Positions 14,593 through 61,296 of a stretch of 64,000 bases of DNA are shown one piece after another. A program made the translations under genes and the position numbers. A model generated the notes under the pieces. That model did no database searches. It saw nothing but the letters and a program-made list of their open reading frames with translations, and was not told the origin of the DNA. The stretch is from assembly GCF_002846365.1 (NCBI RefSeq), contig NZ_PJMW01000002.1, forward strand, positions 1,798,001 to 1,862,000. The letters run 5' to 3'. Each line of letters starts with the position of its first letter. The stretch's first letter is position 1. The stretch is from Nocardia fluminea (GTDB lineage Bacteria > Actinomycetota > Actinomycetes > Mycobacteriales > Mycobacteriaceae).

Positions 14593-14929
14593 GTCCGTAC
14601 CGTCACACAAAAAAGGTTTAGCTGCCCCGTTGCCTGCGTATTCAGTCACGGTGCCGACAGCGCTGTCTGATCCAGCTGAGAGGCATACCAGAAGTAAAGC
14701 CCGCTGATCAAAGACCCGGCGGCGCAACGGTAGCGATGCAGTCGCTGAAGGTCTCGTCTTCGCGGCCCGCCCGATTCTGGACCGACCGAAGGGTGCGACG
14801 AAGGAGTACCCGTAGGGAGGGAAGAATCGGGGCCCGAAGGGCCGCGACCCGAGCGCGCCAGCGCTCCGAGGATTCAGCGCCTAAACTGTCTGGGACGTAG
14901 CCGGATCATGACCGAGAGGTGTTGTTTCG
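14593..14929. other. Intergenic region holding dispersed repeat copy A
   Basis: The 337 bases hold the structured repeat (14760-14847). A possible -10 element TAAACT (14882-14887) lies ahead of the GntR gene. The first 170 bases show A/T-rich CACAAAAAAGG but no gene or clear terminator. Confidence 0.5.
14760..14847 (+). repeat. Dispersed structured element, copy A
   Basis: A 44-base core (14779-14822, beginning GGACCGACCGAAGGGTGC) matches copy B at 43 of 44 positions. The flanking arms pair with each other (TCGCGGCCC/GGGCCGCGA and CGATTCT/AGAATCG). The arms are not the arms of copy B, so pairing is kept while sequence changes. The core could form a small inner hairpin, GGGT (14791-14794) with ACCC (14808-14811). 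The element is in sense orientation, 82 bases upstream of the GntR start. Confidence 0.75.
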
Positions 14930-61116: not shown

Positions 61117-61207
61117 CGCAGACACTCCAGGGTCAAGACGTGAGCAGCAGCACACCGTGCGGTGCAACAGGCAACATACAGGATTCTCGGCGGCGCGGGC
61201 GCCGCGT

Positions 61208-61296
61208 GTTCTCGGCCTGGAGGCCTCGATCTTCCCTCCCTACGGGCACTCCTTCGTCGCACCCTTCGGTCGGTCCAGATCGAGGCGGCCGAGAAC
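61208..61296 (-). repeat. Dispersed structured element, copy B
   Basis: On the minus strand, the core at 61233-61276 matches copy A at 43 of 44 positions. The arms are GTTCTCGGCC...TCGATCT and AGATCGA...GGCCGAGAAC. They pair with each other but differ from copy A arms. The one core change (A to G) turns a possible T-A pair into G-T, keeping the inner GGGT/GCCC hairpin. It lies upstream of the sugar-binding lipoprotein gene in sense orientation. Confidence 0.75.

Follow-up and report, generated by a model that had tools for sequence, protein, structure and literature searches.

Two places in the window (the whole analysed stretch of 64,000 nucleotides from the genome of Nocardia fluminea) share a short sequence between self-complementary arms, and the question is what kind of element this could be. 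The original prediction described a core at 14779-14822 (plus strand) that recurs at 61276-61233 (minus strand), and direct reading indeed gave 43 of 44 identical positions, with a single A/G difference. As claimed, the two sites lie 46 kb apart, in opposite orientation and next to unrelated genes (an LPG_synthase_TM protein and a GntR regulator at one, a solute-binding protein and a DUF2786 protein at the other). A 46-base core pattern (one R position, up to three mismatches) matched only these two places in the window and had no match in 100 dinucleotide shuffles of the window. The arms, too, are self-complementary in each copy and differ between copies (CGATTCT/AGAATCG versus TCGATCT/AGATCGA). 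Their pairing was borne out by folding with RNA parameters, but their length was not, the stems being longer than predicted and carrying a 5-nt bulge.

Beyond this first hairpin (HP1), the element continues with a second hairpin (HP2) and a tail, reaching about 14877 in copy 1 and about 61179 in copy 2. In the best fold with RNA parameters, 14760-14778 of copy 1 pairs with 14823-14847 around the 5-nt bulge (z = -5.05; 0 of 200 shuffles equally good), and copy 2 (61295-61209) has the equivalent fold (z = -6.58; 0 of 200), whereas the opposite strands folded more weakly (z = -2.15, 6 of 200, and z = -2.97, 1 of 200). With DNA parameters and HP2 included, the stems were unchanged but stood out less from shuffles: 2 of 200 were as good for each copy (z = -2.90 and -2.79), and the opposite strands had z = -1.88 and -1.74. 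The parts of the two copies are as follows.

14760-14877, plus strand: copy 1, whole element with HP1, HP2 and tail (sequence and fold)
14760-14768, plus strand: copy 1, 5' arm of the outer stem, partner 14839-14847 (fold)
14769-14778, plus strand: copy 1, 5' arm of the inner stem, partner 14823-14833, one unpaired base (fold and covariation)
14779-14822, plus strand: copy 1, core with a conserved internal loop rich in G.A, the apical stem GGGTGC/GTACCC and the cap C(GAA)G
14823-14833, plus strand: copy 1, 3' arm of the inner stem (fold)
14834-14838, plus strand: copy 1, five-base bulge on the 3' side (fold)
14839-14847, plus strand: copy 1, 3' arm of the outer stem (fold)
14851-14866, plus strand: copy 1, HP2 with GAGCGC, loop GCCA and GCGCTC (sequence and fold)
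14867-14877, plus strand: copy 1, tail with CAG at its end (sequence and tail profile)
61179-61295, minus strand: copy 2, whole element with HP1, HP2 and tail (sequence and fold)
61277-61295, minus strand: copy 2, 5' arms of the outer and inner stems (fold)
61233-61276, minus strand: copy 2, core, 43/44 identical to copy 1 (sequence)
61223-61232, minus strand: copy 2, 3' arm of the inner stem (fold)
61218-61222, minus strand: copy 2, five-base bulge (fold)
61209-61217, minus strand: copy 2, 3' arm of the outer stem (fold)
61190-61205, minus strand: copy 2, HP2 with GCGGCG, loop CCCG and CGCCGC (sequence and fold)
61179-61189, minus strand: copy 2, tail with CTG at its end replacing CAG (sequence)

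The element is about 118 bp long, non-coding and dispersed, with about 29 matches in the N. fluminea genome (G000); BLAST returned 40 matches at E ≤ 10, 29 of them better than 1e-4. HP1 consists, in order, of the outer stem, the 5-nt bulge, the inner stem, a conserved internal loop (CTGGACYGA...GGAGGGAAG) and a variable apex, and is followed by HP2 and an A-rich tail finishing near CAG. With minor departures, HP1 with its 3' bulge, HP2 and the A-rich tail were common to the genome copies inspected, 27 of which were aligned (L027 and L029, divergent or partial, and L030, which is not a copy, were omitted). L028 has a different core, with a purine-rich run on its 5' side and GACCGACC on its 3' side. 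The apex of the core is replaced in other copies and in other genera, and L314 (G344), a relative, keeps the outer stem, HP2 and tail with an unrelated apex. The HP2-plus-tail module was found two to three times behind a full copy at L018 (G000) and at L275 and L334 (G304), and tandem or head-to-head copies occur at L043, L113, L124, L154 and L167; at L113 and L154 a leader of about 30 nt is also repeated beside the unit.

If the element acts as a folded strand, its arms should covary over many copies. In the 27-copy alignment, 98.4% of 566 cells pair (shuffled mean, 80.6%) and the covariation score was 0.499 (0.167 shuffled), with 0 of 500 shuffles as high in either case; when partner columns were slid by 1 to 3, the score did not exceed 0.060. 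Of the five measures applied, two were not striking, namely the pairs changed on both sides (11 versus 9.5 shuffled; 24 of 500) and the pair types (26 versus 25.0; 187 of 500). A wider set comprised the 231 distinct copies among the fetched loci, viral loci left out, that match TGGACYGA...GGAGG[GA]AA; since this pattern was used for selection, its positions are conserved by construction, but the arms played no part in it. At least 7 of 8 inner-stem positions were paired in 219 of the 231 copies, compared with 25 when arms were swapped randomly between copies (one run), and 93 distinct 8-nt arms were present. Stem positions 2 to 8 were Watson-Crick in 205 to 220 copies, versus shuffled means of 68 to 170. 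Moreover, G.T pairs exceeded A.C pairs (47 versus 9; p = 2.6e-7 with related copies treated as independent), which identifies the purine-rich strand as the folded one. The predicted structured DNA or RNA element is thus supported by arm covariation in a many-copy alignment. It had not been recognised from its sequence, and indeed no named Rfam family matches it, with nothing at or above the gathering threshold in the window and nothing in eight further loci. The best sub-threshold match, D12-methyl, was rejected (17.1 bits versus 57, pairing other bases).

How the arms change was followed in 16 orthologous comparisons at 11 loci, 13 with flanks about 89 to 99% identical and 3 against the N. 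fluminea genome at 83 to 95%. Both members had changed in nine pairs, and no pair that still matched had a change in one member only. These nine come from 4 of the 16 comparisons, two of them with a genome in common, and for the outer stem only paired positions were counted. Three inner pairs were unpaired in one partner. These both-side changes suggest that one arm is copied from the other or that whole copies are replaced, which limits covariation as proof of selection, since part of it may reflect hairpin-templated copying or copy replacement. The original argument that a simple insertion would carry identical arms is therefore weaker than it appeared: arms at orthologous sites change on both sides simultaneously, and copies 1 and 2 fall into distinct arm subfamilies.

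The sites themselves are polymorphic. At one of them G016 and G032 hold different subfamilies and G000, G178 and G304 are without HP1, the sequence in G178 and G304 resembling a deletion remnant. Subfamilies also differ by species at the shared sites L022/L254/L270 and L026/L257/L280, and at L255 a single gap holds copies of opposite orientation in G178 and G304. Independent insertion or replacement has taken place at one and the same site. HP2-tail remnants without HP1 (L256, L258) were considered as 5'-truncated insertions, but deletion of HP1 explains them equally well and they are therefore not counted as evidence. Five sites could be compared in an occupied and an unoccupied allele; in four of them the latter shows CAG at its right junction, L276 being the exception, and about 10 nt (L274) and about 50 nt (L276) of unoccupied-allele sequence are missing. 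A check for target-site duplications, which had been proposed, found none that was clear at these five sites; one of them, L261, carries CAGGGTTCT on both sides, overlapping the start of the stem. The tail profile ends abruptly after ACAG(C), so that the right end is sharp and the left end variable; it was built from the 157 of 231 copies attaining a score that 68 of 231 shuffles also attain.

The hairpin loops bear on whether the active form is DNA or RNA. When folded with RNA parameters, 176 of 231 copies had C(GNA)G as their HP1 cap, and GNRA (3) and UNCG (1) loops were nearly absent from both hairpins. Classed by direct stem search, the HP2 loops of the 231 copies were C(GNA)G in 90, C(GNYA)G in 45, C(GNRA)G in 1 and UNCG in none; G(CNNG)C (6), C(CNNG)G (2), weak (21) and other (66) loops made up the rest. 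Five mononucleotide shuffle sets (1,155 sequences) gave only 11 C(GNA)G and 2 C(GNYA)G loops in HP2. In the N. fluminea genome, C(GNYA)G occurred in 16 of 27 HP2 loops and C(GNA)G in none. CNNG loops are stable DNA tetraloops. The heptamer GCGAAGC is present in many element copies; as DNA it has a Tm of 78°C, and mini-hairpin DNAs with GNA or GNNA loops and at least two G-C pairs are described as extraordinarily stable in an excerpt of PMC4686876. These loop types point, though indirectly, to single-stranded DNA as the active form in preference to RNA.

The element is spread patchily over many actinomycete genera. BLAST found it in 15 of 60 relatives examined, all Nocardia. A stricter pattern matched 23 of 301 genomes of the family (14 of 29 within Nocardia, 9 of 272 outside; reversed pattern, 0), with up to 63 copies per genome (G122). 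In a class-level sample, 7 of 394 genomes matched and the reversed pattern matched 2; the match in G549 is probably due to chance since its arms are unpaired. At least 118 stretches matched across named records, and the matches listed include Nocardia, Amycolatopsis, Williamsia, Gordonia, Smaragdicoccus, Antrihabitans, Actinophytocola, Nocardioides, Intrasporangium, Acrocarpospora, Herbidospora, Planotetraspora, Streptomonospora and others. A single query from G011 had no match in phage and plasmid collections. Viral contigs gave 39 pattern matches, which were taken as chance because their arms pair at no more than 6 of 8 positions, none reaching 7 of 8. Two records stand apart. In L109, titled Kitasatospora arboriphila, the neighbour genes are ordered as at the Williamsia loci L074, L075 and L131, so this record may be misassigned or contaminated; L163, in a metagenome-assembled genome labelled Proteobacteria, has an arm-paired copy on a 4,962-base contig, probably through a binning error or transfer.

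For genomic context, 146 copies were analysed on the basis of gene calls from a simple GC-frame method. Nine lie inside a called ORF and 20 are without a neighbour on one side; for the remaining 117 the neighbour orientations were ++ 48, -- 26, +- 22 and -+ 21. The median gap was 17 nt on the right and 92 nt on the left, and where the right-hand gene faces the element (48 of 117) the right gap had a median of 1 nt. A search for linked genes around 142 copies found no gene common to the loci, and the clusters obtained were discarded as ordinary genes (pyruvate kinase, 5 loci) or frames through GC-rich repeats. Copies adjoin the pyruvate kinase gene at L106 and L156 in Nocardia and at L074 and L075 in Williamsia, on opposite sides in the two genera, which suggests a favoured gap. 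In all three genomes examined, the copies cluster around dnaA (at 1.70 Mb in G000 contig C2, 2.53 Mb in G122 and 0.51 Mb in G011). With gap density not factored in, the dnaA-nearer half of the chromosome held 22 of 27 copies in G000 (KS p = 1e-5) and, among the matches listed, 36 of 40 in G122 (KS p = 8e-9) and 27 of 30 in G011 (KS p = 2e-6); tandem copies were merged, and for G000 contig C2 was taken as circular, with two C1 matches omitted. In 68 of 107 copies (p = 0.0065, tandem copies unmerged), the folded strand had the same direction as the fork.

A mobile element of this kind would need a protein that moves it. Of the 23 copy-bearing genomes tested, 15 had no Y1 transposase (PF01797), including G122 with its 63 copies and N. 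fluminea; positive controls matched. Reverse transcriptase (PF00078) was absent from 8 of 12 copy-bearing genomes and present in 2 of 12 copy-free ones. Both were rejected as the mover because they are missing from many copy-bearing genomes. Y2 (PF04986) was found in 0 of 24 genomes, and no control genome matched either. The N. fluminea genome contains three 501-aa reverse-transcriptase ORFs of equal score, probably copies of one intron or retroelement.

G000 C1, 1053978-1054691: reverse-transcriptase ORF
G000 C2, 3726639-3727352: reverse-transcriptase ORF
G000 C3, 40181-40894: reverse-transcriptase ORF

With slightly better than even confidence, we read the element as a non-coding, non-autonomous, REPIN-like mobile element of about 118 bp that acts as single-stranded DNA in folded form. 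Its purine-rich strand would fold into HP1 and HP2, and a protein supplied in trans might recognise HP1 by its conserved G.A internal loop and join the end of the tail to the target, with the right end against CAG. Targets would mostly be intergenic gaps, close to the right-hand gene, and the left end would be imprecise. Single-stranded DNA exposed at replication could lead to the clustering around dnaA. Counted against this reading are that no mover and no clear target-site duplication were found, that about 10 and 50 nt have been lost at two sites, that CAG is missing at one of five sites, that the loop types speak for DNA indirectly and that ++ contexts exceed -- contexts, which an RNA role would also give. 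A structured RNA, as a small RNA or untranslated-region element acting post-transcriptionally and dispersed by another process, would indeed account for that excess (48 versus 26), for the fixed folded strand with its tolerated G.T pairs, for z-scores that are stronger with RNA than with DNA parameters and for right ends that in some cases adjoin ribosome-binding sites; we nevertheless regard it as unlikely, since GNRA and UNCG loops are nearly absent (4 of all loops in the RNA-parameter count, 1 and 0 of 231 in HP2), 48 of 117 right-hand genes face the element and neither a common neighbour gene nor an Rfam family was found. Far less credible is a transcription terminator or insulator hairpin at gene ends: copies do lie in gaps with right ends near gene ends (median 17 nt, or 1 nt if the gene faces), but they also lie directly upstream of genes (++ and -+), are missing at orthologous sites and have no U tract.

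The nine both-side and zero one-sided changes in the 16 orthologous comparisons, the different subfamilies at one site and the remnants lacking HP1 are what one would expect of a palindromic repeat without a dedicated mover, spread by recombination or repair, whose arms match through quasipalindrome correction or copy replacement and not through selected pairing. This, too, we consider improbable. Copying between arms leaves unexplained that specific non-Watson-Crick motifs of the internal loop and of the HP2 caps are maintained across genera, and the conserved tail and right end and the patchy distribution between genera also speak against such a repeat. Returning to mobile single-stranded DNA, we entertain more tentatively, as a doubtful extension, that the element represents a novel class of bacterial mobile element: a folded DNA strand with DNA-specific caps, a conserved sheared-G.A loop for recognition and a CAG-directed right end, concentrated near the origin, mobilised by an enzyme that belongs neither to the Y1 nor to the reverse-transcriptase family and with arms that are repeatedly rewritten from one another.

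Apparently, this is a widespread actinomycete repeat family, and within the open-licence literature, to which the search was confined, we found no description of it. If the folded single-stranded DNA is real, the loop statistics would be natural evidence for DNA over RNA hairpin rules and the conserved loop a ready probe for the missing enzyme. Turnover can be viewed directly at the occupied and unoccupied sites of closely related Nocardia, and the element may serve as an example of palindrome covariation that arises without stepwise selection.

Which known systems does the element resemble? Like REP/REPIN sequences with their RAYT (Y1), it is short, extragenic, dispersed, hairpin-forming, non-autonomous and present in many copies; REPIN hairpins also show compensatory changes and tandem forms, as an excerpt of PMC3116915 describes. 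REPINs, however, have conserved ends and a variable middle. In the present element it is the stems that vary, whereas the internal loop, the tail and the HP2 caps are conserved; conserved REP ends in inverted orientation on either side of a variable spacer are not present, and 15 of the 23 copy-bearing genomes tested have no Y1 transposase. MITE-like repeats (Correia/NEMIS, RUP, ERIC, CIR) are likewise intergenic, shorter than 200 bp and able to form stable stem-loops, CIR having two arms joined by a linker (excerpt of PMC2229807). Inspection by eye of the flanks of the 27 copies revealed no obvious terminal inverted repeats of the kind shared with an insertion sequence, and no target-site duplication was clear at the five sites compared. 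The intrastrand triplex repeats of E. coli (TMECO) share the intergenic position and a non-B DNA motif; according to an excerpt of PMC4666352, they are origin-proximal in strain MG1655, a bias unseen in other E. coli strains, and their consensus requires CCCTCNCCC with two GGGNGAGGG blocks. This consensus motif is absent from the element copies. The ends of IS200/IS605 and IS91 and the attC sites of integrons are folded single-stranded DNA that is read by structure, with one precise end beside a short target. The element resembles them in its proposed folded single strand and in its one precise end, but many copy-rich genomes are without Y1, and the element does not follow the core-site order of attC. 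Since REPINs, CIR and other small repeats, and TMECO each fail or leave open a defining feature, we place the element among the small mobile hairpin repeats as a variant of its own.
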